64,000 nt of DNA from Desulfocarbo indianensis (GTDB taxonomy: Bacteria; Desulfobacterota; Desulfarculia; Desulfarculales; Desulfarculaceae), in contig LBMP01000005.1 in assembly GCA_001184205.1 (NCBI GenBank), positions 248,001 through 312,000 of the forward strand. The letters are read 5' to 3'. Of the stretch, positions 3,001 through 20,386 are shown in pieces (position 1 is the first letter of the stretch; every line of letters starts with the position of its first letter). Made by a program: the position numbers and the translations under genes. The notes beneath the pieces are model-generated. The model worked only from the letters and a program-made list of their open reading frames with translations. It searched no databases and was not told the DNA's origin.

Positions 3001-3476
3001 ACGATGCCGACCCGCAGGCTTTCGCTCAGGCGGCGCGAGAGCAGGCCGCTCAAGAAAGTCACGATCTGGTCGGTGCGGGCCTGGACCTCCACCAGGAAAT
3101 GGGCCACGTATTGGCGGGGTATCAGAAAGAAAGGGAGCCCTTTTTGGCTGTAGCGGATCAAAAGCCCCAGGCGCTTGAATATGTCGTTTATGGTCCTGTA
3201 ATTGGCCGCCGCCTGGTCTTGGTCGGAAAGGTCCAGGGTTTCAAGTACATGGGCGTGTTCGGGCGGCAGGACGCTCTGCTCGTACAGGCCCAGGCCATAG
3301 GCGTTCCCCCCGAAGCGGTCGGGCAGAAAAGGCGGATGGTCTTCCGCCGGGAATGTTCCCAGGGGCACGTCCTCGGGGTCTATGCCCAGCTCCTCGAACC
3401 GCTCTGGCGGAATGAAGCGGTAAAGACCCGAAACCCGTGCAACCTCCGGGGGCAGGGCTACCGTGGTGCCTGACAT
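1..3476 (-). CDS. Very large uncharacterised protein, C-terminus beyond left edge
   Basis: An open minus-strand frame runs without a stop from an ATG at 3476 to the window edge, giving more than 1,150 residues; the C-terminus is missing. I do not recognise a named family. The N-terminal ~270 residues look alpha/beta (a strand IVVSGNELLVPEV near residue 160 and MIMVGDPLAFV near 215). The rest is leucine-rich and helical. Near the visible end, the pattern LLMLAVLLRGQGPNT, a single His, and later LEHHGVF recalls the spacing of the HD phosphohydrolase part of GlnD-type proteins, but the HD dipeptide is replaced by R-G, so any such domain would be catalytically dead. The gene is divergent from the M20 peptidase gene. 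Long plus-strand frames over the same bases are shadows: this frame is unbroken for 3.4 kb with normal protein composition. Function unknown. Confidence 0.75.
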   Translation of the reverse strand, partial: MSGTTVALPPEVARVSGLYRFIPPERFEELGIDPEDVPLGTFPAEDHPPFLPDRFGGNAYGLGLYEQSVLPPEHAHVLETLDLSDQDQAAANYRTINDIFKRLGLLIRYSQKGLPFFLIPRQYVAHFLVEVQARTDQIVTFLSGLLSRRLSESLRVGIVVSGNELLVPEVQARMPHLEFKIIDSLSALAARQGPFAAMIMVGDPLAFVRAQRGAPEQPEQHPDREANGYFITSRLWDMLEDTGEVLCLADCPLGPSNENVNVRFASQGELKRFLMFSHVYRTRRRYKSGKGLELKVNRFDFNTFLSGISIYHETVEGLLEGRSLAMVEPREIDRLPYQDLSLPRGSAESALAAWQRWFSPFFELHRRVATLPEVQRREWKTRYELEGYFPDTLLVLEGRRRRPAVSYANLESRLQSQRIAGCDRGLLAGYKDSFAYVRKVLDLLEEVRKGTLRGLPGLELSRLRKPFETARRHPALHDVFKLMALAPRLGRMENRLNPEGLAGPRTPVLSNLEKLSLMGLEEGPLLQLSLIVLGHSTMARVTFGKLPETTLEPLTDLGSYRNLEEAVTMIRLYRLLSVAEAAAASPSGLTNEQVAELFSLYDDAIRVVTDLGFDWQDLLNQQISRLGGVQAKAFRKMLKLFNLFEYLDSWQALEQAGPRLKEAMAGFDPAKLERIGQVVELANQGRQFVERFYAGDSMARPYFLRALLNCEMHGTGRLLPRLGATAGFKLLWICVHTSEKRLLNFNRLIEVGGQSELDERLDKLRLALNRLEPGQLSPRWLASLRGAMAEGSEAYILDSGIYLTLDKTTGALTPRFLDVADELGRVKAEMDHGLAVELSQVSDERLQALDRGLYEVQRFLAAQGRRRPGKDLGAERLLEMVRQENRLSRRLENYLLSELFDLPRFAVNLKRLMLNCPRVMDRLLPRPAGQPRTWRCLRAAQKLSALYMRRLDLFQDMYKSHETARAEFGATAAGIVGVSPLQFQTLTASLAQLLAGGAKYQLAELLMLAVLLRGQGPNTLSGHDLAIHPLVRAQGLGKRQLADLSFLLEHHGVFGQIINGESTSLNLESLLGEQDQPLLEALFLLSVIFTAASQESSFTEDLLERFFWLLQKVRGLVRQGKEARQAHQASLEEYARQLLALAHYRDIQNGEAPTSSLR

Positions 3477-3548
3477 TTAGCTCCCTCTTGGCCGAGTTGC
3501 TGGGCGCTTGCAGATGGTATCTCCCTTGGAGGCAAGAGTCAATGATGG

Positions 3549-3577
3549 TTGACGTTCCCGCCGGGCCTGGCTAGTCT
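3549..3577 (+). promoter_or_regulatory. Candidate sigma-70 promoter for the M20 peptidase gene
   Basis: TTGACG (3549-3554) and TAGTCT (3572-3577) are 17 bases apart. They lie about 55 bases before the ATG, in the divergent gap between two genes. The -35 is good, the -10 matches only 3 of 6 positions. Confidence 0.3.
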
Positions 3578-3631
3578 TGGGCCCTGGCGTTTGCCGCGGG
3601 CGACCCCCGATTCCAGCAAGGAGGCTTTGTC

Positions 3632-4858
3632 ATGTCCCTGGCCCAAAAACTCATGGACCGCGTTGAAACCTACGCCGCGCAAATGGTGGAGGCCCAAGAA
3701 AAGCTGGTGGCGGTGCCGGCCCTGGGGCCGGACAACGGCGGCCAGGGGGAACTGGCCAAGGCCCTCCTGGTGGAGGATTGGCTGCGGGAATTGGGCCTGG
3801 CCATAGAGCGGGTGGACGCTCCCGACCACCGGGTGGAAAGCGGCCTGCGGCCCAATCTGGTGGCCAGGCTGCAGGGAGGGCCGGGGCCGGCCCGCTGGGC
3901 GCTGAGCCATCTGGACGTGGTGCCCACCGGCCCCCTGGAGCAATGGACCAGCGACCCCTGGCGGCTCCGGGTGGAGGGCGACAAGCTCTACGGCCGGGGC
4001 GTGTTGGACAACCACGGGGGTCTGTTGGCCTCGTTTTTCGGCCTGAAAGCCCTGCTGGAAGAAGGCGTCGCGCCGGCGGGCGCGGCGGGGCTGGTCATGG
4101 TCAGCGACGAGGAGACCGGCTCCCAATACGGCCTGGACCATGTGCTCAAGGCCAGGCCCGATCTGATCGGGCCCCAGGACCTGGTGGTGATACCCGACGC
4201 CGGCGAGGACGACGGGCTTTTCATCGAAGTGGCCGAGAAATCCATCCTGTGGCTCAAGGTGGAGGTGTTGGGCAAGCAGGTGCACGGCTCCACTCCCCAG
4301 GACGGGGTCAACGCGCTTTACGCCGCGGCCCGCATGATGGTGGCGGTGCGGGAGATGTACGGGCGCTTCAGCCAGAGTGACCCGGTTTTCGCGCCGCCGG
4401 TCAGCACCTTCGAGCCCACCCGCAAGGACGCCGGCGTCTCCAATATCAACACCATACCGGGCAAGGACGTATTCTACGTGGATTGCCGGGTGTTGCCCGA
4501 AATAGACTTGGCCCGGGTGGAGGCCGCCTTTGCCGAAAGGTTTCAGGAGATCGCCGGCCAGGAGGGGGCCCAGGTGCGCATAAGCGCTGAGCAGCGCCTG
4601 CAGGCCCCGCCCGCCACGCCCGCGGATGCGCCGGTGGTGCGGGCCCTGGCCCAGGCCATTCAAACCGTGAAGGGCGAGCCCGCCAAGCCCGGCGGCGTCG
4701 GCGGCGGCACGGTGGCGGCCTATTTCCGCAAGCGGGGGTTGCCGGCGGCGGTCTGGTGCACCTGGCCGCATACCGCCCACATGCCCGACGAATGGTGCTC
4801 CCTGCGCAACCTCCTGGACGACGCCAAGGTGTTCGCCCTCTTGTTCGCCGGAGTCTAG
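3632..4858 (+). CDS. M20-family zinc metallopeptidase / amidohydrolase (ArgE/DapE/CPG2-like)
   Basis: A 408-residue cytoplasmic protein that should hydrolyse an amide bond in a dipeptide or N-acyl amino acid. The family's metal ligands are visible: H in LSHLDVVP (about residue 93), the bridging D in GRGVLDNHGG (about 128), the catalytic Glu pair in SDEETGSQ (about 163), a D in VIPDAGEDD (about 190) and the final His in PHTAHMPDE (about 384). The lid domain lies between about 200 and 315. No signal peptide is seen. AAGGAGG sits about nine bases before the ATG and sets the start. The substrate cannot be told; the length fits M20 dipeptidases of the Xaa-His/ArgE type. Confidence 0.9.
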   Translation: MSLAQKLMDRVETYAAQMVEAQEKLVAVPALGPDNGGQGELAKALLVEDWLRELGLAIERVDAPDHRVESGLRPNLVARLQGGPGPARWALSHLDVVPTGPLEQWTSDPWRLRVEGDKLYGRGVLDNHGGLLASFFGLKALLEEGVAPAGAAGLVMVSDEETGSQYGLDHVLKARPDLIGPQDLVVIPDAGEDDGLFIEVAEKSILWLKVEVLGKQVHGSTPQDGVNALYAAARMMVAVREMYGRFSQSDPVFAPPVSTFEPTRKDAGVSNINTIPGKDVFYVDCRVLPEIDLARVEAAFAERFQEIAGQEGAQVRISAEQRLQAPPATPADAPVVRALAQAIQTVKGEPAKPGGVGGGTVAAYFRKRGLPAAVWCTWPHTAHMPDEWCSLRNLLDDAKVFALLFAGV

Positions 4859-5384
4859 GCCGCCGCCAGCCCAGCGCCGGTCCCCGGCATGCGGGCTTTG
4901 CCAGGTTCGGATTCGGGGAGGCCGCGCGTTCATATTTGTGCGGCCGCCCCGACCATTTTCGCCATGCGCCATTGTGTGTTTGACAGCGCAAAGCGCGATG
5001 TTCTAGCATTTGAGATGTAAGCGCGCTTGCCGGTAACCGGCCAGGCCGGCCCGAAGGCGCGAAGGGGGGGGCAAATCATCCAATGACCATCCGATTGCGT
5101 GCCAGCCAGCCAAACGAAGCCGCCGGACGCGGGCGGAAACCTGAGATCAAGCCTTTAGACTAAGCCGCGCCCACCCTCCCAAAATATTTTCCCGAAAGCG
5201 ATCCCGCTGGTTAAGTGCCGGGATGGCATGAAGATCGGCAACCCCATGCCTGCCCCTCGCATGGCGGCCCCAAGGTTTGAGCGATGCGCCCCTCTCGCCA
5301 AGGCGGCGCAAAGCGATGACCAGGCCGGCTGATGGCGTACTTATTCGCACTTAAGGTATCCACCCAGCAAAAAAGGGGAGCGAC
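4859..5384 (+). promoter_or_regulatory. Upstream region of the repeat-peptide cluster with a candidate promoter
   Basis: This 526-base stretch holds no convincing gene; the short frames in it lack good starts. A possible sigma-70 promoter is TTGACA (4980-4985) and TAGCAT (5004-5009) with an 18-base gap, which would leave a leader of about 370 bases before the precursor gene at 5385. A strong Shine-Dalgarno stretch (AAGGGGAG) stands just before the ATG at 5385. I see no recognisable riboswitch. Confidence 0.35.
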
Positions 5385-5948
5385 ATGGCCAAGAAAGACG
5401 AAAGCAAGAAAAAAGCCGCTGGCAAAAGCAAAAAAGGAGGGTTCGCTCCGGTGCTGACCGATGAACAGGGCAAGCCCCTGGGGCCGGGCGTGGAAGTCGA
5501 CCCGGCCAAACTGGCGGAAGTAATCGCCGGCGTGTCCCATTGCTCGGCCGGCCACAAAGTGGACTCCAAGAAGCTGGCCGAGGTCATTGCCGGGGTCTCC
5601 CACTGTTCCGCCGGCCACAAGGTTGACCCCAAGAAGCTGGCCGAGGTTATCGCCGGAGTGTCACATTGCTCGGCCAGCGAAGTGGTGCACGCCGATAAAC
5701 TGGCCGAAGTCATTGCCGGGGTATCCCACTGCTCGGCCGGCCACAAGGTGGACCCCAAGAAACTGGCTGAAGTCATCGCCGGAGTGTCACATTGCTCGGC
5801 CAGCGGACTCCTGGGGGCCGAGGGCTTGATCTGCGGTCCCGGAGCCCTGAGCGCGCAGGACGTGACCAATTTGTTGGAATCCATAAAAAATCTTTCCGAA
5901 AGCCTCAGAAACGCCTCTGAACTGCTTCTCAGGCTTTACAAGGGCTAA
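5385..5948 (+). CDS. Five-repeat precursor-like peptide, putative radical-SAM RiPP substrate
   Basis: A 187-residue protein with three parts: a Lys-rich N-terminus (residues 1-37, ending in TDEQGKPLGPG), five tandem 21-residue units (38-142) and a C-terminal tail (143-187) that is mostly an amphipathic helix. All five units contain the identical 14-mer KLAEVIAGVSHCSA. Cys falls at 53, 74, 95, 116 and 137, exactly 21 apart, each preceded by His. Units 1, 2 and 4 continue G-H-K, units 3 and 5 continue S-E or S-G. One more Cys is at 150. There is no signal peptide. The LAEVIAG part resembles the end of double-glycine/Nif11-type leaders, so each unit may carry its own recognition or cleavage element. 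The gene is followed at once by five radical-SAM genes, which is why I call it a precursor. The modification and final product are unknown. A metal-binding repeat protein is the alternative. Confidence 0.85.
   Translation: MAKKDESKKKAAGKSKKGGFAPVLTDEQGKPLGPGVEVDPAKLAEVIAGVSHCSAGHKVDSKKLAEVIAGVSHCSAGHKVDPKKLAEVIAGVSHCSASEVVHADKLAEVIAGVSHCSAGHKVDPKKLAEVIAGVSHCSASGLLGAEGLICGPGALSAQDVTNLLESIKNLSESLRNASELLLRLYKG
5496..5810 (+). repeat. Five 63-bp in-frame tandem repeats in the precursor gene
   Basis: Units start at 5496, 5559, 5622, 5685 and 5748, each exactly 63 bases. The amino acid core is invariant while the bases differ at many third positions (for example GTA, GTC and GTT for one Val). Units 3 and 5 share a long identical run (from 5651 and from 5777, 126 bases apart), which points to duplication of a two-unit block. 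Confidence 0.9.
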
Positions 5949-5965
5949 AGCGGGGGGGTAAAGGC

Positions 5966-5988
5966 CGCCGGCGTTCTGGCGCCCGGCG
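5966..5988 (+). other. Intercistronic stem-loop after the precursor gene
   Basis: CGCCGGCG (5966-5973) can pair with CGCCCGGCG (5980-5988) with one bulged C and a six-base loop. It lacks a T-run. In the 59-base gap between the precursor and the first maturase it could limit read-through or stabilise the upstream message, giving more peptide than enzyme. This is an inference from position and folding only. Confidence 0.35.
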
Positions 5989-6007
5989 CGCCGCGCCGCA
6001 TAGTTGC

Positions 6008-7393
6008 GTGAGACCATCATCGCCAAACAGCCTGGGTCTTTCTCAGGGAACCGTGCTGCTGGAAGGACGAAGCGGCGACTTCGCCTATTTGGTCAGCTCC
6101 AAGCCCAACCGCGCCCTCCAGCTCAACCGTCACGGTATTTTTTGTCTCAAGGCGCTGCACCAAGGGGTCAGCCTGGAGGCGCTGGCCCTCTTGTGCTCGC
6201 TGATTTTCGAGGATGAGCTGGAGGAGTGCCGCCGCAAGGTGGCCGGCCTGGTGGGGCCGCTGGCGGATATGGGCATCGTGGGCCAGGACCCCGCCCGGCG
6301 CGCCCGTTCCCCCTTCAGAAAGGTCAGGACCTCCCGCCCCTTGCTGAGGATATTTCTGGAACTGACCAAGCACTGCAACCAGCGCTGTCTGCACTGCTAC
6401 GCCGAAGCCGGCGCTTCGCCGCCAACGAAAGCGGAACTCACCCTGGCGGAGATCGAATCCCTGATCGCCCAAGCGGCCCGGCTGGGCGTCATGGAATTCG
6501 ATGTAACCGGCGGCGAGCCCTTCACCCGCCCCGACATGGCGGGCGTCTTGCGGGCCTTTCATCGCGCAGGCATGCTGGTGAACCTCTACACCAACGCCAC
6601 TTTGCTGGGCCGGGCCAACCTGGCCGCCCTGGCCGAGTATCCCGTCAGGTCGCTGATCATAAGCCTGGACAGCCTGGACGAAGGCGTGCACGACCGCTTC
6701 AGGGGCATGGCCGGGGCCCAGGCGCGCACTCTCCAGGCGCTCAAGCGGCTGCGCATGATGGGCCAGCCCTTCCGCGTCAATATCAGCCTGAACAAGCTGA
6801 CCCACCAGCGGGCTCTGGCCACCGCCCGTTGGGCCTTGGAGGAGTTGGGGGCCTGTTCCCTGGCCGCGGCTCCTCTGTTTTCCGTGGGGCGAGGCCGGAA
6901 GAACCGCGGCCTTTGGCTGGACCGGGAGAGCTGCCTGGAGGTGCTGGCAGAGCTATACCGCCAATGGGGCCCCGGCCTGCTTGCCGGGGAGCATGGCGGC
7001 GGCCCGCCGGGCTCGCCGGCCTGCGGCGTGGCCGAAAGCATGCTTTTCATTTCCGCCGGCGGCGAGGTCTCCTTTTGCCCCACCCTGACCGCCGGCCAGG
7101 CGCCGGAGCTGGCCCTGGGCAATGTGCGGCGGAAAAGCCTGGGGCAATTGTGGGAACGGGGCATGCTGCGGCACCGCTTTTACCGGGCGCAGTGCAGGGA
7201 TATGGAGAACTGCCCGGCGGCCGGGCTCTGCCGGGGCGGCTGCCGCAGCCGGGCCTTCCTGGAGACCGGGGAGATGAACGCTCCCGACCCCCTGTCATGC
7301 CGGCTTTTCAGAGGTCTTTTGGCCGAGCAAGGAGGTTGCCGAACTGGACCGCTTGATGCCATCGCTCACCGTGGAGCTGACTTACCGCTGTAA
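6008..7393 (+). CDS. RRE-fused radical SAM/SPASM peptide maturase (first of cluster)
   Basis: A 461-residue protein. Residues about 14-92 resemble a PqqD-like winged-helix (RRE) domain that would hold the precursor leader. The radical-SAM core follows with C123-x3-C127-x2-C130 (KHCNQRCLHC) and the GGEP motif (TGGEPFTRP). The C-terminus has the Cys set of a SPASM domain (C-G..., F-C-P, then C-R-D-M-E-N-C, L-C-R-G-G-C and S-C-R), expected to bind auxiliary [4Fe-4S] clusters. Such enzymes form thioether, C-C or similar crosslinks in peptides. The start is a GTG at 6008; a GTG at 6053 preceded by AGGGAA is an in-frame alternative and would keep most of the RRE. The next gene overlaps its end by about 38 bases, so they are probably co-translated. 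Confidence 0.88.
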   Translation: MRPSSPNSLGLSQGTVLLEGRSGDFAYLVSSKPNRALQLNRHGIFCLKALHQGVSLEALALLCSLIFEDELEECRRKVAGLVGPLADMGIVGQDPARRARSPFRKVRTSRPLLRIFLELTKHCNQRCLHCYAEAGASPPTKAELTLAEIESLIAQAARLGVMEFDVTGGEPFTRPDMAGVLRAFHRAGMLVNLYTNATLLGRANLAALAEYPVRSLIISLDSLDEGVHDRFRGMAGAQARTLQALKRLRMMGQPFRVNISLNKLTHQRALATARWALEELGACSLAAAPLFSVGRGRKNRGLWLDRESCLEVLAELYRQWGPGLLAGEHGGGPPGSPACGVAESMLFISAGGEVSFCPTLTAGQAPELALGNVRRKSLGQLWERGMLRHRFYRAQCRDMENCPAAGLCRGGCRSRAFLETGEMNAPDPLSCRLFRGLLAEQGGCRTGPLDAIAHRGADLPL

Positions 7394-8324
7394 CCGGAGC
7401 TGCCTTTTCTGCTATTGCGGCGAGGCGCGCGCCGGCAAGGCCGAGTTGGCCCTGGATGATCTCAAGCTGCTGCTGGGCAATTTCCGTGGGGCCGGCGGCA
7501 GGCAGGTGGCCTTTACCGGCGGCGAACCCTTCCTGCGCCGGGACCTGCCGGAGATCGTGGGTTTCGCCAGGAGCCTGGGCCTCTGGGTCTCCTTGAGCAC
7601 CAACGGCACCCACGCCGCCGCCGCGGAAAACCGGGGCGGCGTGCTGGACGCCGTGAACCTGGTGCGGGTGAGCCTGGACGGGCCCCCCAAAATACACGAC
7701 GGCCTGCGGGGCCGGGGCTCCCACCAACGCCTCATGGCCTTTGTGGAGCTTCTCGAGCAAGCGGGCAAGCCCTACGAAATCCAATACACGGTCAGCCGCA
7801 ACAACTTCGCCTTTTTGCCGTGGATGTTCGAGACCTGTTGTTCCCTGCCAAGCCTGCGGTTCCTTTCCGTCACCCCGCTTCTGCCCCTGGGCCGGGCCGC
7901 CTCCGGCGAGCAATGCCTGGACCACGCCCAGGAATTGGCGCTCTATCTGTTCCTCAGGCAGTGGGGAAACGGCTCCCAAGGCCGGTTTTTCTGGGGCAGC
8001 GAACTCTGCGGGCAGCGCTCCCTGAGCCGCCGTCGCCAGATTTTCAAGACCAGCCCCTTGTCTTTCATGCGTCTGGTGGCCCAGCCCCATGGCGTCCTCT
8101 TCCCCTGGTTCAGCCTGGGGCCGGCTTGGTCCCTGGGCGGTTTCCGCGATTCCTGGGACAAGCTCTTGGCCAGCCCCAACCTGGCCAGGGCCCTGGCCGT
8201 GGTGGAGGGGGCCTTCCTGGCCGGCGACCGCCTCTTGCGCGAGAAATACGCGGTGGACATCTCGCGGCTGATCATGACCGGCTTCTCCCTGGCGGCCGTG
8301 GAGGCCGCCGGCCATGCCGGCTGA
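7356..8324 (+). CDS. Minimal radical SAM protein (second of cluster)
   Basis: A 322-residue radical-SAM enzyme that begins almost directly with its cluster motif: C12-x3-C16-x2-C19 (RCNRSCLFC). TGGEPFLRRD and a strand with SLDG follow. It has no RRE domain and no evident SPASM Cys set; the C-terminal third (from about 190) is unlike standard maturases. It may act together with one of its RRE-bearing neighbours. The ATG at 7356 is chosen; a TTG at 7353 is next to it, and the best Shine-Dalgarno (AAGGAGG, 7329-7335) lies about 20 bases upstream, so the true start could be a few codons earlier. It overlaps both neighbours, which supports tight coupling. Confidence 0.82.
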   Translation: MPSLTVELTYRCNRSCLFCYCGEARAGKAELALDDLKLLLGNFRGAGGRQVAFTGGEPFLRRDLPEIVGFARSLGLWVSLSTNGTHAAAAENRGGVLDAVNLVRVSLDGPPKIHDGLRGRGSHQRLMAFVELLEQAGKPYEIQYTVSRNNFAFLPWMFETCCSLPSLRFLSVTPLLPLGRAASGEQCLDHAQELALYLFLRQWGNGSQGRFFWGSELCGQRSLSRRRQIFKTSPLSFMRLVAQPHGVLFPWFSLGPAWSLGGFRDSWDKLLASPNLARALAVVEGAFLAGDRLLREKYAVDISRLIMTGFSLAAVEAAGHAG

Positions 8325-9804
8325 GGCCCAGGCCCGGCGCGGCCTCGCGCACAAGACCGGCATAGCGCCCCAGGTGCGCTATTGTTTCGAGCACGGGCGT
8401 TTGTTCATGCACGACCGGCGCGACTTGAGCCTTTACGAAGGCAACCGGGACCTCTGGGAGCTGCTGGAGGCCCTGTCCGCCACGCAGAGCCCGGCCCAGG
8501 CCCTGGAGCGCCTGGGGCGGGGCAGAAACGGCCAGGACCCCGCCTTGGCCGCCCGCTTCCAGCAAACGCTGGCTCTCCTGGCGCAAATGGGCCTGGTGGA
8601 GCTTGCGGACCTCCCGGCTCCCCAACCGGCCGGGGAAGCGGCCAAGGCCGGCGCGGCCCCGCGCCCGGCGGGCCGGCGGGCCTATTCCTATGACGCCTTC
8701 ATCGCCCGCATATCGGATATGGTGCGTCCGGCCGGCTCCCAGCCCTTGGCGCGCCCGCTCCTGGTGGAATGGCAGTTGACCAACGCCTGCAACCTCTCCT
8801 GCTTTTATTGCTACCACGGCGAAAACAAGGCCCGCACCGCCGGCCAACTGAGCACGCCGCAAGCCCTGAGCCTGGCCCGCGACCTGGCCCGCTCCGGGGT
8901 GATGCAGGTCACCCTGGAGGGCGGCGAGCCCCTCCTGCATCCCGGCCTCTTGGACATCGTGGCCGAGTTGAAGAACCTGGGCCTGCAGGTTCGCATCCTC
9001 ACCAACGGCACCCGCCTGAGCCCGGACATGGCTTCAGCCCTGGCCGGGCTCCTGGACCCGCGCGCGGACCTGATTCAGATCAGCCTGGACGGCTCCAGCG
9101 CCGCGGTGCACGAACTCAGCCGGGGCGAGGGAAGCTTCGAGCCCGCCCTGCGCGGCCTGGCCAACCTGGCCAGGGCCGGCCTGCCCTGCCAGGTGAGCAT
9201 GGTGGCCCACCAGAGCAACCTCCACGACCTGAAAAACACCTATCTGCTGGCCGGCCGCTTTAACAACGTGACGGGATTCATGGCCGCCCATTACATGAAG
9301 GCGGGCAGCGCCCTGGCTATGGCCGCCCTGGACAAGGCTCCCCTGCTGGAGGCCTTTCATCAGGCGCGGGCGGCGGCCTGGCGCGACGCCTCGCTTCCCC
9401 CCGCCACCCTGTTGCCCGGCCACCTGCTCCACCTGGACGAGGTGTGGCGGATGTGCCAGGAGCTATCCAACCCGGAAATACGCTATTGCCGGGCCGGCCG
9501 GGCCAAGGTGACCATCGACGCCAACGGCGACGTGTACCCCTGCCACTTCCTGATCTATCCCGAGTTCAAGCTGGGCAGCCTGCGCCAGGAGAGCCTGGCC
9601 GACATCTGGACCTCGCCCCGCATGGCCTTCATCCGCGACCCCCGCAGCCCGCAGGCGGAATGCCACCGATGCGACCGGGGCCGCTGGTGCGGCAAGAAAT
9701 GCATGGGCCTGGCCTATGCCTATTACCGCGACCTGGACAGGGCCGATCCCAACTGCCTCTACGCGGCGCGGGGCTTCCAGGCGGCCTCCAGGGCCGGGGC
9801 CTAG
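8314..9804 (+). CDS. RRE-fused radical SAM/SPASM peptide maturase (third of cluster)
   Basis: A 496-residue protein. Residues about 17-98 form a PqqD/RRE-like domain, followed by an Ala/Pro-rich linker (100-122). The radical-SAM motif is C159-x3-C163-x2-C166 (TNACNLSCFYC), with EGGEPLLHPG and SLDGS further on. The SPASM-type Cys set stands at the end: Y-C-R, Y-P-C-H, then C-H-R-C, W-C-G-K-K-C and N-C-L-Y. The architecture parallels the first maturase but the sequences differ, so they probably catalyse different steps on the same peptide. The ATG at 8314 overlaps the previous gene by 11 bases. The next gene starts two bases after the stop. Confidence 0.88.
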   Translation: MPAEAQARRGLAHKTGIAPQVRYCFEHGRLFMHDRRDLSLYEGNRDLWELLEALSATQSPAQALERLGRGRNGQDPALAARFQQTLALLAQMGLVELADLPAPQPAGEAAKAGAAPRPAGRRAYSYDAFIARISDMVRPAGSQPLARPLLVEWQLTNACNLSCFYCYHGENKARTAGQLSTPQALSLARDLARSGVMQVTLEGGEPLLHPGLLDIVAELKNLGLQVRILTNGTRLSPDMASALAGLLDPRADLIQISLDGSSAAVHELSRGEGSFEPALRGLANLARAGLPCQVSMVAHQSNLHDLKNTYLLAGRFNNVTGFMAAHYMKAGSALAMAALDKAPLLEAFHQARAAAWRDASLPPATLLPGHLLHLDEVWRMCQELSNPEIRYCRAGRAKVTIDANGDVYPCHFLIYPEFKLGSLRQESLADIWTSPRMAFIRDPRSPQAECHRCDRGRWCGKKCMGLAYAYYRDLDRADPNCLYAARGFQAASRAGA

Positions 9805-9806
9805 CC

Positions 9807-11393
9807 ATGGCCGCGCCCAAAAGCCTTTTGGTGTTCCCGCCCATCTGGCTCAGCACGTCATTCCCCTATCTGTCCCTGCCCTGCCTGGCGGCGGCCCTGC
9901 GCGGCCACGGCTATCCGGTGGAGGTATTGGACCTCAACCTGGGCTTTGCCCATCGCCTGGCCAGCAGGGAAGCGGGCTCCGCCCTGTTGCAAGCCATGCT
10001 GGCCCAGGGCCGCCCGCCCAGCGTCCAGCAAAGAAGCCTGGCCGCCTGGCTGGCGCCGCCCAAGGTCAAGGGCCGCTTGCAGCCGGGCCAATACCCAGGC
10101 CTGCTGCACCTGGCGGCCACGCTGAGGGGCCTGCCTCCAGGCCTTTCCGCCAGCCACGCCGCCCATTTCCTCAGCGGCATCTGGTCCAATCAGGTTACCC
10201 TGGCGCAGCTCATGAGGCTCTGCCAAAACCCGGAGCACCACCTGGCGGCCCCTTATCTGGAGCAAAGCTTCGGCGAGGCCCTGCACCGCCACCGTCCCCA
10301 CCTGGTGGGGCTATCCGTGGCCAACAGCACCCAGCTCATGGCCGCCTTCGCCCTGGCTGGCCAGGCCAGGGAGATATTGGGACGGCGCGTCACCATCGTC
10401 ATGGGCGGGCCCTGGTGCACCCTCATGGCCCGGACGCTGAGCCAGGCGCCGGAGCTTTTCGATCTGCTGGACTACGTGGCCGTCTCGGCCGGGGAAGCGC
10501 CGCTCCTGGCCATCCTGCGGGGCCTGGCCCAGGGCCGGGGCCCCAGCCGCCCGGAGGGGTTGATCCATAGGGACGCCCAGGGCCTGGTGAGGCAGACCCC
10601 GCCGGCCCCCCTGAGCTGCCGCCACTTGCCGCCGCCGGATTTCAACGGCTTGGATCTGGCGGGCTATTCCGGCTTTTCCACGCATTCGCTCACCATCCCC
10701 CTGGAAGCCTCGCGGGGCTGTTATTGGGGGCGCTGCCGGTTTTGCAATTATTGCCGCATCAATCCTGGCTACCAGGCCAAGGGCGCGCCGCAGGTGCTGC
10801 ATGAAATCGGGGAGGCCCTGCGCGCCTATCCGGGGGCTGGCATATCTTTCATAGACGACGTGCTGAGCCCGGCCCGGCTGGGCCGGCTGGCCGGGGCCAT
10901 CCTGGAGCGCGGCTGGCGCTTCGCCTGGTCCGCCTCGGCCCGGGCGGGCAAGGGCTTCACCCTGGAGCTTTGCCGCGCCTTGCGGGCGGCCGGCTGCCGC
11001 CTGCTGTTTTTCGGGCTGGAAAGCGGCAGTGAGCGTCTGCTGAAGCTCATGGACAAGGGCTTCGGCCTGGCGGAGGCCCGCCGCACCGTGGCCAATTGCC
11101 ACCGGGCGGGCATCGTGGCGGCGGCCAATCTGATCGTGGGGCTGCCCACCGAGAGTCGGCAAGAGGCCGAGCAGACCATGGAGTTCAGCCGGGAGTTGGG
11201 CTTGTCGCGCCAGTATCTCACGGTTTCGGAGTTCTCCTTTGCCAGGGGCTCGCGCTTTTTCCAGGACGCGGCCCGCTACGTGGACGACCCCGGCCTTTTG
11301 GCGAGCATGCGCCGCGGCCAGGTGCAGACCACCTTTCCCCTGCCCCGCGATTATGAAGTCAGCCAATGGCTGACCGCCAAGGAAGCGCCATGA
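9807..11393 (+). CDS. B12-binding-type radical SAM protein with Cx4Cx2C motif
   Basis: A 528-residue protein that opens LLVFPPIW, as B12-binding radical-SAM enzymes often do. A Rossmann-like segment (about 160-250: VGLSVANST, VTIVMGGPW) lacks a DxHxxG motif, as is usual for this class. The radical-SAM cysteines are C305, C310 and C313 (RGCYWGRCRFC), a Cx4Cx2C spacing instead of Cx3Cx2C, and a further Cys is at 316. FIDDV, FGLESGSERLL and VGLPTES follow, typical of this superfamily. Enzymes of this type commonly methylate unactivated carbons, and RiPP-associated relatives also have lengthened Cys spacing. The ATG at 9807 is two bases after the previous stop; a longer frame upstream overlaps the third maturase and is rejected. 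Confidence 0.82.
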   Translation: MAAPKSLLVFPPIWLSTSFPYLSLPCLAAALRGHGYPVEVLDLNLGFAHRLASREAGSALLQAMLAQGRPPSVQQRSLAAWLAPPKVKGRLQPGQYPGLLHLAATLRGLPPGLSASHAAHFLSGIWSNQVTLAQLMRLCQNPEHHLAAPYLEQSFGEALHRHRPHLVGLSVANSTQLMAAFALAGQAREILGRRVTIVMGGPWCTLMARTLSQAPELFDLLDYVAVSAGEAPLLAILRGLAQGRGPSRPEGLIHRDAQGLVRQTPPAPLSCRHLPPPDFNGLDLAGYSGFSTHSLTIPLEASRGCYWGRCRFCNYCRINPGYQAKGAPQVLHEIGEALRAYPGAGISFIDDVLSPARLGRLAGAILERGWRFAWSASARAGKGFTLELCRALRAAGCRLLFFGLESGSERLLKLMDKGFGLAEARRTVANCHRAGIVAAANLIVGLPTESRQEAEQTMEFSRELGLSRQYLTVSEFSFARGSRFFQDAARYVDDPGLLASMRRGQVQTTFPLPRDYEVSQWLTAKEAP

Positions 11394-11944
11394 AAGCCGA
11401 CCCCAACGACATACGCCTAAGGCCCGTGACCTACGAGGACCTTCCCGACCTGCACGCCTGGTGGAGCGATCCCCAGGTCATGCGGCCGGTGCGGGCCGAA
11501 AAATTCAAGGTGAGCCTGCAAGAGTTCCAGGAGGAGTATTGGCCCCGCTGGCGCTCGCCCGCCCCGGATCAATACCACCAATTCATCATCACGCTGGATG
11601 GCCGGGCCATCGGCGAAATCGGCTACCTGCGGGAAAGCGCCGATCCCTGCACAGTGTCCGTGGACATCAAGATCGGCCTTCCCCGGCTCTGGGGCCGGGG
11701 CCTGGGCGGCCGCGCGCTGGGGCTTTTCCTGGAGATGCTCTTCGGGCAATTGAAGGCGGAGCGGGTCATCGCCCAGCCCGGCGCCTGGAACCAGCGCAGC
11801 CTGCGGCTTTTCCAGGGAGCGGGTTTTCAGGAAACCGGCCGCCAGGAGATAGCGCCCAGCGCCATCCACGAGGGGGGGACCATGGTGAACCTGGAACTGG
11901 ACCGCGCCTCCTACCTCGCCCGGCGGGGGCCCCGCCGTGGCTAG
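11390..11944 (+). CDS. GNAT-family N-acetyltransferase in the RiPP cluster
   Basis: A 184-residue protein of the RimJ/RimL-like GNAT fold. It opens IRLRPVTYEDLPDLHAWW, continues with IGEIGYL, and has the acetyl-CoA loop region around LWGRGLGGRALGLFL and the late N-x-x-S-L-R-L-F motif (WNQRSLRLF). It would transfer an acyl group from CoA to an amine. In this setting the target may be the N-terminus or a Lys of the processed peptide, or it may give self-protection. The ATG at 11390 overlaps the preceding stop as ATGA and has AAGGAAG at a good distance; an earlier in-frame start at 11366 lacks this. Confidence 0.85.
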   Translation: MKADPNDIRLRPVTYEDLPDLHAWWSDPQVMRPVRAEKFKVSLQEFQEEYWPRWRSPAPDQYHQFIITLDGRAIGEIGYLRESADPCTVSVDIKIGLPRLWGRGLGGRALGLFLEMLFGQLKAERVIAQPGAWNQRSLRLFQGAGFQETGRQEIAPSAIHEGGTMVNLELDRASYLARRGPRRG

Positions 11945-14219
11945 GGCCGGGCGCGCCATAAACCGCGTCACCCTCCTGGCCATGTACCCGGAGGACGACG
12001 CCTATTATCCCCTGGCTTCCGCCCTGCTGCGGGGGGCCATCCTGACCTCCCCCCTCTTGCGGACCAAACCCGAGGTCAGCATCGTGAACCTGTGCAACCG
12101 GCTGGGCGGCCAGGCCATCGCGCAGGCGGTTCTGGCCACCCGTCCCGATTTCTTGGGCGTCACCTGCCTGATCTGGGATTTGGCCCTGGCGGAGCGGGTG
12201 GCGGAACTGGTGCGGACCGCCTCGCCCGGCTGCCGGGTGGTCCTGGGCGGCAGCGGGGCGCAAGCCTGCGCCGCGGAGATCATGGCCCGCTGCCCCCAGG
12301 TGGATTGGGTGGCCCAATGCGAAGGCGAGGAAGCACTGCCCGAACTTTTGGCCGAGTTGGGGGAGCGTCACGCCGGCCCCTTGCGCACGCCGGGCCTGCA
12401 CGGCCGCCATCGCGGCAGGCCTTATTACACCGGCCAGCGCCCGCTCATCGCCGACCTGAGCGCCCTGCCCTCCCCCCTGGAATACGGGCCGGCCATCCAA
12501 CCCGAGATGACCCTGCTCCTGGAAACCTCCCGGGGCTGCGCCATGGCTTGCGCCTATTGCTTTTGGGGCGACCGCCGCATGCGTTTCCGCGACCCCGCCA
12601 GCTTCCAGCGCGATCTGGAGCTGCTGGCCCGTTCAGCCCGCCGTCCCAAGCGCCTCTGGTTCGTGGATTCCATCTTCAACCTCAAGCCCGGGCACGCCAA
12701 GGGCATCTTGCGCCTCATGCGGGGCATGGACGGATCCATCCACGTCACCATGTTCATGGAATTCGGCCTGCGCCGCCTGGACGACGAAATGATCGACCTG
12801 CTGCTGGAGGCGCGCATCGACGTGCTGGGGGTGGGCCTGCAATCGGCCGATGCCCAGGCGCTGGCCGCGGTCAACCGGGGCTGGAACCGGGAAATCTTTC
12901 TGGAGAACATGCGTCGGGTCATGGAGCGCCGTAGGGGGACGCCCTATCTGGACCTGGACATGGACCTGATCTTCGGCCTGCCCAAGGGCAACCTGGCCGA
13001 GTTCCGGGATTCGTATAATTTCCTGGCCAAGCTCAGGCCGGAGATCATTCATTGCTTCCGGCTGCAGGTCCTGCCCGGCACCAGGCTCCATGACGAGCCC
13101 AACGAGCACGGCTTTGTGCTGGAGCGGGACTATCACGTCAGGGAGAGCCGCGACTGGAGCGCTCAGGAAATGACGGCGGCCAACCATTTCGCGGTGGCTT
13201 CCCACGCCCTGATCAATTCCATCTACGACCTGGCCGACCACCGCCAGGCGCGCTCCTGGCTGGCGCGCCTGGAAGACAAAATACAGGCCACGCCTTATGA
13301 AATGGTGGAATGCTGGCGGCATTGGCTATGGCTGCGCCACGGCCTGGACGCGGGCGGCGTGGCCGCGGCCACGGCCCAGCGCATGCAGGAGCTGACCGTG
13401 GAATTCATCCTCACCCTGGCCATGAACGTGGACCCCGCTCTCATGGAAGAGATTTCCTCCCATGGGGGCCGCCGGCCGGTGCGCGCCGCGCAATACGATG
13501 AAGATGGTCCCGAACTGTCTCTTTACCGGCGCTTCGCTTCCTGCCTGCCGGGGCCGGTGCTGGAGCTTGGCGCGGGCGACGGCCGCATCTGCGGCATGCT
13601 GGCCAGGGCCGGCAAGGAGGTGACGGCGGTGGACCGCGACGCCGCCTGCATAAACAAACTGCGGCGGCTGGCCGCGGGCCTGGCCGGGGGGCCCGGCTCC
13701 TTAAATCCCGTGCAGCGCGATTTTCGCGGCATGGACTTGGGCAGAAGATTCCCCCTCATCATTTTGGGCGGCAACTCCCTGGCCATCCTGGAGGGCCGGG
13801 AATCGGTGCGGGCGGCCCTGGCTTGCCTGGCCAGGCACCTGGAAGCGAACGGCCTGGCCTTGGTGGATTGGGTGGATCAGCAGGGACTCGCCGCGAGCAA
13901 TGGAAAGGTTCACGAGCTGGGCCCCAAGGGCCCGACCGGCGAAAGCGCCTTCCTGCGCATCAAAAACGCCGCTGGGAAGGACAGGGTGTTGATCCAGAGG
14001 GTCACGGTGCGCCAAGACGGCCAAGGCCAGCCCCAGGTGGCTTACAGCCAAAAGGCGGCCCTTATCCTCGGCCAGGACGCCATCCCCCAGCTGGCGGCGG
14101 ACTGCGGCCTGAAGGTGGCCTTTTCCATAGTCAATCTCAGCCGTTTCGTGCCTGGGCCGGGCCAGGGCTTGCACGTCATGTATGCGCTCGGCCACGCGGA
14201 ACCGGCGCGACCCTCCTAA
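11937..14219 (+). CDS. B12-binding radical SAM protein fused to a SAM-dependent methyltransferase
   Basis: A 760-residue two-enzyme fusion. The N-terminal ~180 residues are a B12-binding-like Rossmann domain (DFLGVTCLIWD, CRVVLGGSGA). The radical-SAM core follows with TSRGCAMACAYC (Cx3Cx2C), WFVDSIFNL, GVGLQSAD and FGLPKGN. A helical linker (about 395-520) leads to a class I methyltransferase with motif I VLELGAGDGR near residue 536 and the acidic strand TAVDRD. The C-terminal domain lacks obvious target-recognition features. Methylation of both carbon (B12 radical) and a heteroatom (class I) is therefore possible. It starts with GTG at 11937, overlapping the acetyltransferase by eight bases, and is the last gene of the cluster. 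The respiratory operon beyond is convergent. Confidence 0.83.
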   Translation: MARAGRAINRVTLLAMYPEDDAYYPLASALLRGAILTSPLLRTKPEVSIVNLCNRLGGQAIAQAVLATRPDFLGVTCLIWDLALAERVAELVRTASPGCRVVLGGSGAQACAAEIMARCPQVDWVAQCEGEEALPELLAELGERHAGPLRTPGLHGRHRGRPYYTGQRPLIADLSALPSPLEYGPAIQPEMTLLLETSRGCAMACAYCFWGDRRMRFRDPASFQRDLELLARSARRPKRLWFVDSIFNLKPGHAKGILRLMRGMDGSIHVTMFMEFGLRRLDDEMIDLLLEARIDVLGVGLQSADAQALAAVNRGWNREIFLENMRRVMERRRGTPYLDLDMDLIFGLPKGNLAEFRDSYNFLAKLRPEIIHCFRLQVLPGTRLHDEPNEHGFVLERDYHVRESRDWSAQEMTAANHFAVASHALINSIYDLADHRQARSWLARLEDKIQATPYEMVECWRHWLWLRHGLDAGGVAAATAQRMQELTVEFILTLAMNVDPALMEEISSHGGRRPVRAAQYDEDGPELSLYRRFASCLPGPVLELGAGDGRICGMLARAGKEVTAVDRDAACINKLRRLAAGLAGGPGSLNPVQRDFRGMDLGRRFPLIILGGNSLAILEGRESVRAALACLARHLEANGLALVDWVDQQGLAASNGKVHELGPKGPTGESAFLRIKNAAGKDRVLIQRVTVRQDGQGQPQVAYSQKAALILGQDAIPQLAADCGLKVAFSIVNLSRFVPGPGQGLHVMYALGHAEPARPS

Positions 14220-14266: not shown

Positions 14267-14899
14267 TTAAGAGCTGCGCCAAAACGAAGGCGGCATGTGC
14301 GCGCCGCCCGGCAGGGTGGGCGCAATGGCCCAATCCAGGATATCGGTGCCGGCCAGATAGAAAACCTGGGGTTTGGTGTCGAACTGGGGCGCGGTGACGG
14401 TGACCACCTTCTGGCTCTTGAGTAGCCTGGCCGCCGCGCTTTCCGGGTCGTTCAGGTCGCCGAAGACCCGCGCCTGGGTGGGGCAGGTCTCCACGCAGGC
14501 CGGCGGGCGGCCTTCCTGCAGACGATGGCTGCAAAAATCGCACTTGTCCGCCACCCTGGTCATGGCGTCGCGGTAGCGCGCCCCATAGGGGCAGGCGGTG
14601 ACGCAGTTGCCGCAGCCGATGCACTTGGCCGGGTCGATGACCACCACCCCGTCCGCCCGCTGCCAGGTGGCCCCCACCGGGCAGGCCGCCACGCAGGAGG
14701 GCTGGTCGCACTGCATGCACTGGCCGGGCTGGTATTGCCTGCGCCGCCCGAAGCCGCTGGCGTCGTTGCGCACCCAATTGCGCCACTTTCCGCAGGGCAG
14801 GCTGTTCTCCACCTTGCAGGCCACCATGCAGGCCTTGCAGTCCAGGCACCTCTTGGTATTTATCACCATGCCCCAGCGGGGGCTCTTGGCCTTGTCCAT
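14267..14899 (-). CDS. Four-cluster ferredoxin subunit of a molybdopterin oxidoreductase (DmsB/PhsB/NrfC-like)
   Basis: A 210-residue protein with four Cys quartets: CLDCKACMVAC; CMQCDQPSCVAAC; CIGCGNCVTAC; and CDFC with CVETC. This is the classical arrangement of the electron-transfer subunit of DMSO-reductase-family enzymes, carrying electrons between the catalytic subunit and a quinone-reactive membrane subunit. There is no signal peptide, so it would be exported with its Tat partner or work on the cytoplasmic side. It is the last gene of a minus-strand operon, 43 bases behind the catalytic-subunit gene. A second, Tat-bearing ferredoxin is encoded in the same operon. Confidence 0.9.
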   Translation of the reverse strand: MDKAKSPRWGMVINTKRCLDCKACMVACKVENSLPCGKWRNWVRNDASGFGRRRQYQPGQCMQCDQPSCVAACPVGATWQRADGVVVIDPAKCIGCGNCVTACPYGARYRDAMTRVADKCDFCSHRLQEGRPPACVETCPTQARVFGDLNDPESAAARLLKSQKVVTVTAPQFDTKPQVFYLAGTDILDWAIAPTLPGGAHMPPSFWRSS

Positions 14900-14942
14900 C
14901 CGGCTTATCCGCCTTTCCTCAGCGCCCGGCCCCGCGGGGCCC

Positions 14943-17180
14943 TTATGCCTTGCTGACGCTCACCAGGGTCTCATGCATGGCCATGTTGCCGGTGACCGCG
15001 TCGGCCCGGTCCTCCAACAGCTCGGCCAGGCAAGCGCCCTTGCCGTACACGTTTTCCAGCGCCTTGGAGATCACCCCGAAACCGGAATCCATATACACCG
15101 TGTCCGGCCGGGTCTCCTCGGTGATGCGGGCCTTGATGGTCTGCGAACCCACCGGGCTGGTCACCAGCACCTTGTCGCCCTGGGCCAAACCCAGCTTGGC
15201 CGCCTCTTGGGGATGCATCCACAGCGAGTTTTCCTGCTCCAGCTCGCAGAGCAGCACGTTGTTGGTGCTGGAGCTCTGCGAGATGTAGGCGTTGCGGCCC
15301 ACCACCATGCGGTATTTGCCGGCGGGCACCGGCTTGGGCGCGTGGTAGACCGGCATGGGGTCCACGCCGTGCTCCAGATAGCGGTCCACGTACAGCTCCA
15401 CCTTGGTGGAGCGGGTGCGGAAATCCTTGCCCTGGTGCTGGCCGTGGGTGGGGCTCACGTCGTTGTATACCCCTTCTTCCTTGAGCGCCTTGGCCACCTG
15501 GGGCAAGTCCTTGAGCTGGGCCCGGCGGTAGTCCTCTATGGTGAAATCGAAATACTCGCCCAGGCCCAGCCGGCCCGCCAATTCCTTCACGATCCAAAAC
15601 ACCGGCCGGCTCTCGAACATGGGCTCCACCACCGGATCGCGCATCACGATGCCCGAGCAGGCCGAGGAGCCCTGGAAGGACGACACCGGGTCCTGGCGCT
15701 CCAGATAGGTGGGCGCGGGCAGGACCAGGTCCGAAACCCAGGCGGTGTCGCTCATCAAGATATCCACGCAGACCGAAAACTCCAGCTTGGAGAACATCTC
15801 CATGGTCTTCTTGCGGTTGGCCCCGGTCTGCATGGGGTTGGTCTTGTAGTTGAACCAGCCCTTGACCGGATAGGGCTTGCCCTCCAGCACCGCGTCCCGG
15901 GTGTGCTTGAAAGAACCCTCTTCGGGAAACATCATCTGGGCCCGGCCCGCGTCCACCCGGTCCTCGGGGTTGTTATCGTAGAAGGGCGCGGTGAAGCCGA
16001 TGGAGCCGGTCTTTATGGCGCGCGGCAGGGTCAGGCCGCCCTTTTGATCCCAGTTGCCCAAAAGCGCGTTGACTATGGCCATGGAGCGCCTGATCTGGCT
16101 GGAGTCCTCATAATCCGAACTGCGCCGGCCCGGATAGACCATGGCCGCCGGCGCGGCCGCGGCCAATTCCCTGGCCATGCGTTTGATGTCGGCGGCGGGT
16201 ATCTCGCATTCCTTTTCCGCCCATTCCGGCGAATAGGGGCGCAGGTGCTTGGCCAGCTTGTCAAAGCCATGGGTGCGCTGGGCCACGAACTCCCGGTCGT
16301 ACAACTCCTCGGCGATGAGCACCTGGGCCAGGGCCAGGAAGAACGCCATGTCGGTGCCAGGCTTGATGGCGTGGTATTCGTGGGCCAGGGCGGCGGTCTT
16401 GGTGAAGCGCGGGTCCAATACCACCAGCTTGCAGCCGCGCTCCATGGCGGTGACGATGTCGATGCTGTCAGGCGTTACCAGGGCCTCGAAGCGGTTGGCC
16501 CCGGCCATGATGATGTACTTGCAGTTCAGGGTGTCGGGAATGGGCACCACCCCGAAGGTGTCCAGAAAGGCCCGGTTGCGGCTTATCAGGCAGTTGGATT
16601 CGTGGGAGATGACGTTGTAGGAGCCGTAGGCCTCGGCGAAGCGGTGCACGAACACGGACTGGGTGTCGGTGCCCGCGTTGAAGACCGTGCCGCAGGGCGA
16701 GTATTCCTTGGCCAGCTTGCCCAGCTTTTCCGCGGCCAGATCCAGGGCCTGTTCCCAGCTCAGCCGCTGCCACTTGCCTTCGCCGCGAGCGCCCTTTCTG
16801 AGCAGGGGATACTTGAGCCGGTTGGGGTCGTAAAGCTGGCGGATGCCGGCGTTGCCCCGCGCGCAAAGCATGCCGCGCGATTTCAAATAGCGGGGGTTGG
16901 GGTCCAGCTTGCGCACCACCCCGTCCCGCACCCGCGCGATGAGCCCGCATTTGTTGAAGCACATGTCGCAGGCCGAGAAATGCCGGCTCATCTCGGGCGC
17001 GGCCTTGGCGGCCGGAGCGGCGGCCCAGGCCCGCCCGCCCGCCAGCGCTCCCGGTCCGCCCAGGATGCCGCCCAGGGCGGCCGCGCCGCTCAGTTTCAGC
17101 AGCCGCCGCCGGGAAAAGCGCGTTGGCGTATTCGCCGTCAGGGAGCCGGCTCCTTGCGTTTCTTTTTTGCGATCAGACAT
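14943..17180 (-). CDS. Tat-exported molybdopterin oxidoreductase catalytic subunit (PhsA/PsrA/TtrA-like)
   Basis: A 745-residue DMSO-reductase-family enzyme. The Tat signal is SRRRLLKLSGAAALGG (residues 23-38) ending near AWAAAPA. A [4Fe-4S] cluster is bound by C71, C74, C78 and C106. The likely Mo/W ligand is C197 in SHESNCLISR, which places it with the Cys-ligated thiosulfate/polysulfide/tetrathionate branch and not with Ser-ligated DMSO reductases. The C-terminal dinucleotide-binding domain (SLWMHPQEAAKLGL) is present. With the haem, NrfD and ferredoxin partners it would reduce or oxidise a sulfur oxyanion or polysulfide in the periplasm; the substrate is an inference. The ATG at 17180 shares one base with the upstream stop. 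A longer upstream frame overlaps the cytochrome and is rejected. Confidence 0.88.
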   Translation of the reverse strand: MSDRKKETQGAGSLTANTPTRFSRRRLLKLSGAAALGGILGGPGALAGGRAWAAAPAAKAAPEMSRHFSACDMCFNKCGLIARVRDGVVRKLDPNPRYLKSRGMLCARGNAGIRQLYDPNRLKYPLLRKGARGEGKWQRLSWEQALDLAAEKLGKLAKEYSPCGTVFNAGTDTQSVFVHRFAEAYGSYNVISHESNCLISRNRAFLDTFGVVPIPDTLNCKYIIMAGANRFEALVTPDSIDIVTAMERGCKLVVLDPRFTKTAALAHEYHAIKPGTDMAFFLALAQVLIAEELYDREFVAQRTHGFDKLAKHLRPYSPEWAEKECEIPAADIKRMARELAAAAPAAMVYPGRRSSDYEDSSQIRRSMAIVNALLGNWDQKGGLTLPRAIKTGSIGFTAPFYDNNPEDRVDAGRAQMMFPEEGSFKHTRDAVLEGKPYPVKGWFNYKTNPMQTGANRKKTMEMFSKLEFSVCVDILMSDTAWVSDLVLPAPTYLERQDPVSSFQGSSACSGIVMRDPVVEPMFESRPVFWIVKELAGRLGLGEYFDFTIEDYRRAQLKDLPQVAKALKEEGVYNDVSPTHGQHQGKDFRTRSTKVELYVDRYLEHGVDPMPVYHAPKPVPAGKYRMVVGRNAYISQSSSTNNVLLCELEQENSLWMHPQEAAKLGLAQGDKVLVTSPVGSQTIKARITEETRPDTVYMDSGFGVISKALENVYGKGACLAELLEDRADAVTGNMAMHETLVSVSKA

Positions 17181-20100: not shown

Positions 20101-20386
20101 TGAGTAGCGCCGGCCGGATCACGGCGTGGTATTGGTCGCGGTTGAAGATATAGGCGATGAGGCCGGTGGTGAAGCCGCCGGCGGCCAGGGCCACGCCGCT
20201 GGCCACGTCCACCGCCACCCAGATGCCCCAGGGGTACTGGTTGTTCAGGTTGGACACGTAGCCGATGCCGAAGGCGAAACGGGCCACGGCGAAAGCGCCG
20301 CCCACCGCCATGAGGGCCAGCATGACCATGACGCCGGGCGTCAGGAATTTCTCGTCCAGGGGAGCCGCTTGCTCGTGCGCTTTCAT
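17180..20386 (-). CDS. NrfD/HybB-type membrane protein fused to a 13-haem OTR-like cytochrome c
   Basis: A 1068-residue fusion. Residues 1-395 are a polytopic NrfD/HybB-like quinone-reactive subunit (start DEKFLTPGVMV, conserved YPWGIWVAVD at 51-60). At 398-424 lies a stretch that looks like a Sec signal peptide (basic QPKR, hydrophobic core, ending SPPALAQ). The remainder is periplasmic and holds twelve CxxCH motifs plus one CxxxCH (CGMNCH). The first four (from CTICH at 481) form a separate group. The last nine, with NNFCINLNGNWPRCTSCH and CLVCHDTTG, closely follow the octahaem tetrathionate reductase family. It would connect the quinone pool to periplasmic haems and the molybdoenzyme. NrfD and such cytochromes are normally separate proteins. 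It overlaps the upstream gene by four bases. Confidence 0.87.
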   Translation of the reverse strand: MKAHEQAAPLDEKFLTPGVMVMLALMAVGGAFAVARFAFGIGYVSNLNNQYPWGIWVAVDVASGVALAAGGFTTGLIAYIFNRDQYHAVIRPALLTAMLGYTFVVLGLLVDIGRYWNITSPLFNHNPNSVLFEVAMCVMIYLHVLYIEFLPVVAERFKGKVNLPGLLSGLNRPVESLLALADRFLGKMMFLFIIAGVVLSCLHQSSLGALMLIAPYKVHPLWYTPILPLLFLLSAFAAGYPMVAFESLLVAKSFGRKPEMEVLTPLARIMPVLMGVYLAVKLGDMAVRGTYVYLWDGTYQTNSFLVEMLAGVVFPFALLLFKKVRRSPGWLFFASTLWVLGILLNRINVFLVSYRPPYQIEAYFPSVAEVFITVGLVATLMFLYRVFVFIFPVLGAQPKRMTVAGLILAPLALLLLASPPALAQEGARPKKVLSLEGRQFPSVGDAATLIVLNQPVINQYSDQYEPVRFMHRKHAGVLKDCTICHHRMPRDKADTYGEPVRLSQLRQRKQKPASCAHCHQKPFNPRQMDTPGLKGAYHQLCMNCHREADQTPHVRGPIIYSALARGPEVRPLDTQAPTDCLACHARKVPDHAKLVKLAGKPDALAVTQNCLTCHEKEGQAILKTAHWNWQGASPFTVGHEKRIDLGKRHNTINNFCINLNGNWPRCTSCHIGYGWQDAKFDFNDAGRIDCLVCHDTTGTYKKTPTGAGFPADKVDLLKVAQNVGRPSRDTCGMNCHFLGGGGDAVKHGDLSSALTHPTREQDVHMGGGDKGLNFRCQDCHKTRNHMISGRSISVPAVEGDLSCEYCHTDSPHVSGTLADHHLNKHTAHLACQTCHIPVYGRGNPTKVFWDWSTAGQDRPPSKDKYGMPTYNKMKGSFVWAEGAKPEYHWYNGTVRRHILGDRLDPNAVTALTSPVGGIADPASRIYPFKMHRGRQIADAVHNYLIAPKLWQGFWKYWDWDRAAREGMAEAGLAYSGKYRFVETVMYWGLTHEVTPAKEALSCAACHQSLARQDGCLRCHQAAPGVDPGQMATQEKRRDYLDFKALGYPGDPLEKGGRFRSMPLKMVVR

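Follow-up and report, generated by a model that had tools for sequence, protein, structure and literature searches.

In the biosynthesis of ribosomally synthesized and post-translationally modified peptides (RiPPs), radical S-adenosylmethionine (rSAM) enzymes that combine a RiPP recognition element (RRE) with a SPASM domain act on peptide substrates, and their known products carry thioether or carbon-carbon bonds, as for SkfB, CteB, SuiB, and PqqE. In the TIGR03975 and TokK/CysS kinds of B12-type rSAM protein, the reaction is methylation of unactivated carbons. A type of biosynthetic gene cluster (BGC) in which three to five rSAM enzymes are encoded for a Cys-containing peptide was described by Kostenko et al. 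(2022; PMC9062424). The present study concerns a cassette in Desulfocarbo indianensis, found in a 64,000-nucleotide stretch (the window) of contig LBMP01000005.1 (positions 248,001 to 312,000 of the forward strand; assembly GCA_001184205.1), in which a gene for a 187-residue repeat peptide is followed by six co-directional, mostly overlapping genes for five rSAM proteins (rSAM1 to rSAM5) and one GNAT acetyltransferase. We regard it as highly probable that this is a RiPP biosynthetic cassette acting on a multi-unit substrate, with the peptide as its putative precursor.

The open reading frame (ORF) of the peptide, which an earlier note on this DNA had placed at the head of the co-directional enzyme genes, was found at window positions 5385–5948 on the forward strand, with a Shine-Dalgarno-like AGGGGAG element a few bases 5' of its ATG. 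It contains five 21-residue units (5487–5549, 5550–5612, 5613–5675, 5676–5738, and 5739–5801), and the natural phase of the repeat, extending from 5487 to 5801, is a seven-residue linker followed by the 14-mer KLAEVIAGVSHCSA. A period of 63 bp, and also of 126 bp, was independently detected by Tandem Repeats Finder at 5508–5805. The description of the units as five exact copies was too strong because the linkers vary (in order, GVEVDPA, GHKVDSK, GHKVDPK, SEVVHAD, and GHKVDPK); the 14-mer, which accounts for 14 of the 21 residues, is identical in all five. Each unit holds exactly one Cys, with Ser, His, Ala, and Val around it; the helix-prone C-terminal tail contains a sixth, Cys149. The N-terminus (residues 1–34) is Lys-rich, and Trp is absent throughout. 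The peptide had no family in Pfam or NCBIfam, and matches to MOZART1, MXAN_6577-like, and phrog_28930 were rejected, being below the curated cut-offs, where these exist, or restricted to a short stretch.

Selection on the 14-mer at the protein level is the strongest evidence for a functional repeat peptide. Pairwise comparisons of its codons among the five copies gave 67 synonymous and zero non-synonymous differences (pS 0.59, pN 0), while pN in the linkers was 0.46. A hand count from the codon table put the minimum number of independent changes in the 14-mer codons at 15; with a silent chance per change of approximately 0.30, the value for transition-biased random change in this segment, the probability of approximately 15 changes all being silent is approximately 2e-8. 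Since the copies differ only synonymously, the segment is selected as protein. It is invariant in the sense frame only and varies in the other five, and, thus, the opposite-strand ORF at 5351–5884 was rejected as the selected frame.

Regarding the enzymes, the earlier claim of five rSAM genes and a GNAT gene, overlapping or closely spaced on one strand, agrees with both Pfam and the intergenic spacing along the cassette (+59, -41, -11, +2, -28, and -8 nt, all on the forward strand). PF04055 was detected in all five rSAM proteins (E 1e-13 to 5e-25), the radical-cluster cysteine motifs are kept in each of them, and all six enzyme frames are open. rSAM1 (6008–7393, 461 aa) has an RRE/PqqD-like N-terminus (approximately residues 15–90), the core motif CNQRCLHC, and a SPASM cysteine set at 339–431 (PF04055 1.5e-21, SPASM 3.6e-6, PqqD 0.0052), and rSAM3 (8314–9804, 496 aa) has an RRE-like N-terminus (approximately 21–91), the core CNLSCFYC, and a full SPASM cysteine set at 392–481 (PF04055 4.8e-25, SPASM 2.9e-14), its nearest NCBIfam model being the mycofactocin maturase (155 bits against a cut-off of 265). 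Between them lies rSAM2 (7353–8324, 323 aa; core CNRSCLFC; PF04055 1.5e-17), in which no RRE is present. Its C-terminal region aligned as SPASM-like, and cysteine positions indicated that the cluster cysteines have been lost. Of the three kinds of rSAM protein proposed in the note, the RRE/SPASM kind is represented by rSAM1 and rSAM3, the B12-type by rSAM4 and rSAM5, and the minimal kind by rSAM2.

B12-binding and rSAM domains (Cx4Cx2C, CYWGRCRFC) form rSAM4 (9807–11393, 528 aa), a distant relative of the RiPP C-methyltransferase family TIGR03975 (135.8 bits against a cut-off of 281.85), which is also 80–200 residues shorter than its relatives and without their C-terminal extension. The GNAT N-acetyltransferase (11366–11944, 192 aa; PF13302 5e-22), for which an internal ATG near 11390 is a possible start, is distantly similar to AAC(6') below the NCBIfam cut-offs. 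The last gene encodes rSAM5 (11937–14219, 760 aa), with B12-binding and rSAM domains (CAMACAYC) and, absent from the earlier reading, a fused C-terminal class I SAM methyltransferase domain (approximately 520–727). Its nearest NCBIfam models, both below cut-off, were KedN5 for the N-terminal half and the daptide methyltransferase for the C-terminal half; in the PDB, the N-terminal half matched TokK and CysS, and the C-terminal domain matched methyltransferases acting on small molecules and on peptides, among them the cypemycin N-terminal methyltransferase. None of the cassette enzymes scored above the cut-off of any NCBIfam family, and no cobalamin riboswitch or other RNA element was found near the cassette.

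The RRE-like domains ascribed to two of the maturases were recovered by profile for rSAM1 and by model for both, and the presence of RREs in rSAM1 and rSAM3 is considered likely. The best PqqD-family match in the whole genome, although below the curated cut-off, was the N-terminus of rSAM1 (window positions approximately 6092–6280). AlphaFold models, of moderate confidence, predicted three strands followed by three helices at residues 15–87 of rSAM1 and 21–91 of rSAM3. In Foldseek searches, the top matches were SuiB (best), SkfB, PqqE, and CteB for the rSAM1 model and SkfB (best), SuiB, and PqqE for the rSAM3 model; the entry listed as a sactipeptide thioether enzyme is taken here to be CteB. 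The non-peptide rSAM enzymes BlsE and DesII were also among the structural matches. An alignment profile search spanned CteB and TigE, starting in their N-terminal regions.

In the pathway that we infer, the use of the peptide as substrate, the order of the steps, and every bond are proposals. rSAM1 and rSAM3, the two SPASM enzymes with RRE-like domains, would bind the precursor and probably build the scaffold by forming a bond within every unit. This bond is most likely either a thioether involving the lone Cys or a carbon-carbon crosslink within VIAGVSHCSA; one crosslink per unit is the likeliest outcome because each unit has exactly one Cys. rSAM2 probably acts in a complex with rSAM1 or rSAM3 because its gene overlaps both of theirs. 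C-methylation is the role expected of rSAM4 and rSAM5; among unactivated carbons, those of Val and Ile in VIAGV would be natural targets, and PoyC methylates Val, as cited in PMC8326336. Amines, for which the Lys of the units and the N-terminus are candidates, are expected to be capped with methyl groups by the fused domain of rSAM5 and with acetyl groups by the GNAT protein.

The modified units may remain along the chain, as beads on a string, or be released as five peptides. Modification in place is somewhat more likely, given the variation among the linkers and the lack of a protease or transporter gene in the cassette. LAEVIAG resembles a double-glycine-type cleavage context, and C39-type peptidases are present in the genome; since these are unlinked to the cassette, which itself lacks a protease and an exporter, the release of single units is not favored. 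The fullest version of this proposal, which we put forward tentatively and as possible rather than probable, is a new RiPP class with a polymeric beads-on-a-string peptide. In each of its VIAGVSHCSA units, two RRE-SPASM enzymes would introduce crosslinks and two B12-rSAM enzymes would add C-methyl groups, so that all five units would bear three or more different modifications.

No relative of the peptide came to light among the 21 genomes of the order, its own genome being one of them, among 395 genomes from the phylum, or in plasmids or phages; peptide-pattern scans of IMG/VR and of GTDB (approximately 85,000 species) also gave none, although distant relatives may escape the GTDB scans because these require short exact motifs. 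The sole match with E below 0.001 (5e-4, in G350) was spurious, being antisense to a long beta-propeller/NHL-like ORF, and phage matches, with E of 0.07 and worse, were attributed to chance. VSHCSA-like DNA occurs elsewhere in the same genome (C222 and C290), and the C222 match, opposite an ABC transporter gene, looks like chance. No outstanding ortholog in the phylum was found for rSAM1 or rSAM2 (203 genomes each), rSAM3 (395), or rSAM4 or rSAM5 (375 each). Relatives of rSAM1 to rSAM5 were generic, mostly 25–36% identical, and never all together; the flanks of the best ones were also read. Of 80 GTDB loci that hold an rSAM4 relative, none has the full enzyme set, and a scan of the loci of rSAM relatives revealed no repeat peptide resembling the 21-mer.

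Upstream of the cassette, window positions 1–4858 hold a divergent pair of genes for a very large protein (more than 1158 aa, without a Pfam match) and an M20 peptidase. This pair is conserved side by side in the two family relatives for which both genes were called (L178 and L181), and other genes then follow; since it is kept in relatives without the cassette, the cassette looks like a lineage-specific insertion. The M20 peptidase was rejected as a dedicated maturation protease, being a family-wide gene that occurs without the cassette. Downstream, an operon on the reverse strand (14267–21321) for 4Fe-4S proteins, a molybdopterin oxidoreductase, and NrfD/multihaem cytochrome components converges on the cassette. 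The survey also yielded another candidate peptide cassette, at positions 8280–13453 of locus L075 (Syntrophobacterales bacterium DeMMO6_13, JAGVAH010000032.1), which comprises a PqqD protein (PF05402 4.7e-11), two paralogous peptides of approximately 65–79 aa (the one scanned had no Pfam match), B12-type rSAM genes, and a 233-aa ORF in which PKLERV(A/T) heptads recur many times. L010 and L012 encode rSAM/SPASM relatives of rSAM3, the N-termini of which are likewise RRE-like; after the L010 homolog (L039) comes an HPr-kinase-like ORF, which is another possible RiPP-type setting.

Several observations weigh against a RiPP pathway. The sequence matches for the RREs are weak, that of rSAM1 to PqqD being below cut-off and rSAM3 having none in Pfam; the AlphaFold models were built from five-sequence alignments, with a mean predicted local distance difference test score (pLDDT) of 63 for rSAM3 and 58 for rSAM1, which is moderate; the cassette lacks both a leader of any known type and a protease or exporter of its own; and no second genome with the system was found that would show co-conservation of the peptide and enzymes. 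Among the alternatives, the one that survives best is a sub-case of the RiPP pathway, with the same assembly and a different function: the product would be a redox cofactor or a metal-binding compound derived from the peptide, comparable to pyrroloquinoline quinone (PQQ) or mycofactocin and not antimicrobial, with the units serving as five cofactor sites or releasable copies. The mycofactocin maturase as the nearest model of rSAM3, the His-Cys pair in each unit, and a host that looks like a respiratory anaerobe, given the molybdopterin/NrfD/cytochrome operon that lies downstream, are consistent with this function, whereas the matches all fall short of their cut-offs and are of a kind shared by SPASM proteins in general, partner genes of the PQQ or mycofactocin type are missing from the cassette, and absence from relatives is unusual for a cofactor; we consider it rather unlikely. 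It is improbable that the enzymes form a small-molecule pathway, of an amino-sugar or carbapenem-like type, beside which the peptide is an unrelated neighbor, such as a metal-binding or structural repeat protein: the AAC(6')-like GNAT, the TokK/KedN5-like rSAM5, and the matches to BlsE and DesII are in line with this, but the operon has two RRE-like domains, RiPP maturases rank first among the structural matches, the peptide gene lies 59 nt 5' of rSAM1 on the same strand, and the 14-mer is under protein-level selection. That the cassette is decaying or has no function, to which the cysteine-less SPASM-like region of rSAM2, the short rSAM4, and the lack of a known second copy might point, is highly improbable given six open enzyme frames, five intact radical-cluster motifs, and zero amino acid change in the 14-mer.

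As a RiPP candidate, this orphan cassette appears, from its gene content, to direct the synthesis of a small protein whose five Cys-containing units are extensively modified by five different radical enzymes. It is a compact operon of seven genes that brings together a repetitive Cys substrate, five rSAM proteins of three architectures, and a fused B12-rSAM/methyltransferase, and offers a ready test of several radical enzymes sharing one multi-site substrate because each gene is small enough for co-expression. It also tests the recruitment of an rSAM protein without an RRE and auxiliary-cluster cysteines. Its orphan status shows that family-based genome mining can overlook such systems.

In comparison with known systems, the cassette has two general features of RiPP BGCs, a short gene-encoded putative precursor beside modifying enzymes and an RRE-like domain. 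The Cys-bearing core and RRE-rSAM-SPASM maturase of sacti- and ranthipeptides are also present, with the same architecture as SkfB, the best structural match, and CteB, to which identity is approximately 20%; these systems have one maturase per peptide, unlike the cassette, and no curated sacti- or ranthipeptide model in NCBIfam reached its cut-off (for rSAM3: StsB, 118.7 of 625 bits; PapB, 81.4 of 340; SkfB, 88.6 of 300). SuiB, the streptide maturase and top structural match of rSAM1, is likewise an RRE-rSAM-SPASM enzyme, and its Lys-Trp crosslink is impossible here because the peptide has no Trp. Proteusins, as we understand the polytheonamide pathway (partly after PMC8326336), similarly combine a B12-rSAM C-methyltransferase-like protein with other rSAM enzymes and an N-methyltransferase; the cassette differs in the tandem short units of its peptide, in which Pfam and NCBIfam revealed no nitrile-hydratase-like (NHLP) or Nif11-like leader, and in the score of rSAM4 below the TIGR03975 cut-off. 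The daptide methyltransferase model was matched at 90.2 of 175 bits, by the fused domain of rSAM5, and Pfam detected no decarboxylase or aminotransferase partner domain in the cassette. Judged by these profiles, the cassette belongs to none of the RiPP classes tested, and the earlier statement that it matches no named class held, all NCBIfam models being below cut-off.

Two further published systems are related in plan. The TvgA/TvgB poly-cyclopropylglycine RiPP (PMC9062424) also depends on the repeated action of an rSAM/SPASM enzyme on a repeat precursor; it has TVGG repeats, which are absent from our peptide, and one rSAM enzyme in place of a 21-residue Cys unit and five rSAM proteins. Cluster 115, a Cys-rich rSAM BGC (PMC9062424), likewise has three to five rSAM enzymes and one Cys-containing precursor; by its description, it is set apart by a peptidase, a hydrolase, an Asp-Cys motif, and at least three Cys, whereas the cassette has no peptidase or hydrolase and no Asp-Cys motif, and has five tandem units and two B12-type rSAM proteins. 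The five rSAM proteins are present as noted earlier, and because Kostenko et al. (2022) described such BGCs, the view of this set as unusually rich needs to be tempered. Repeat precursors and Cys-peptide BGCs with three to five rSAM enzymes have each been published, and the cassette joins both ideas; new in it are the two B12-type enzymes, the fused methyltransferase, and the longer unit. Taken together, the cassette may be viewed as a variant among RiPP systems that depend on rSAM enzymes, and there is a genuine chance that it will prove to be a new class once its chemistry is known.

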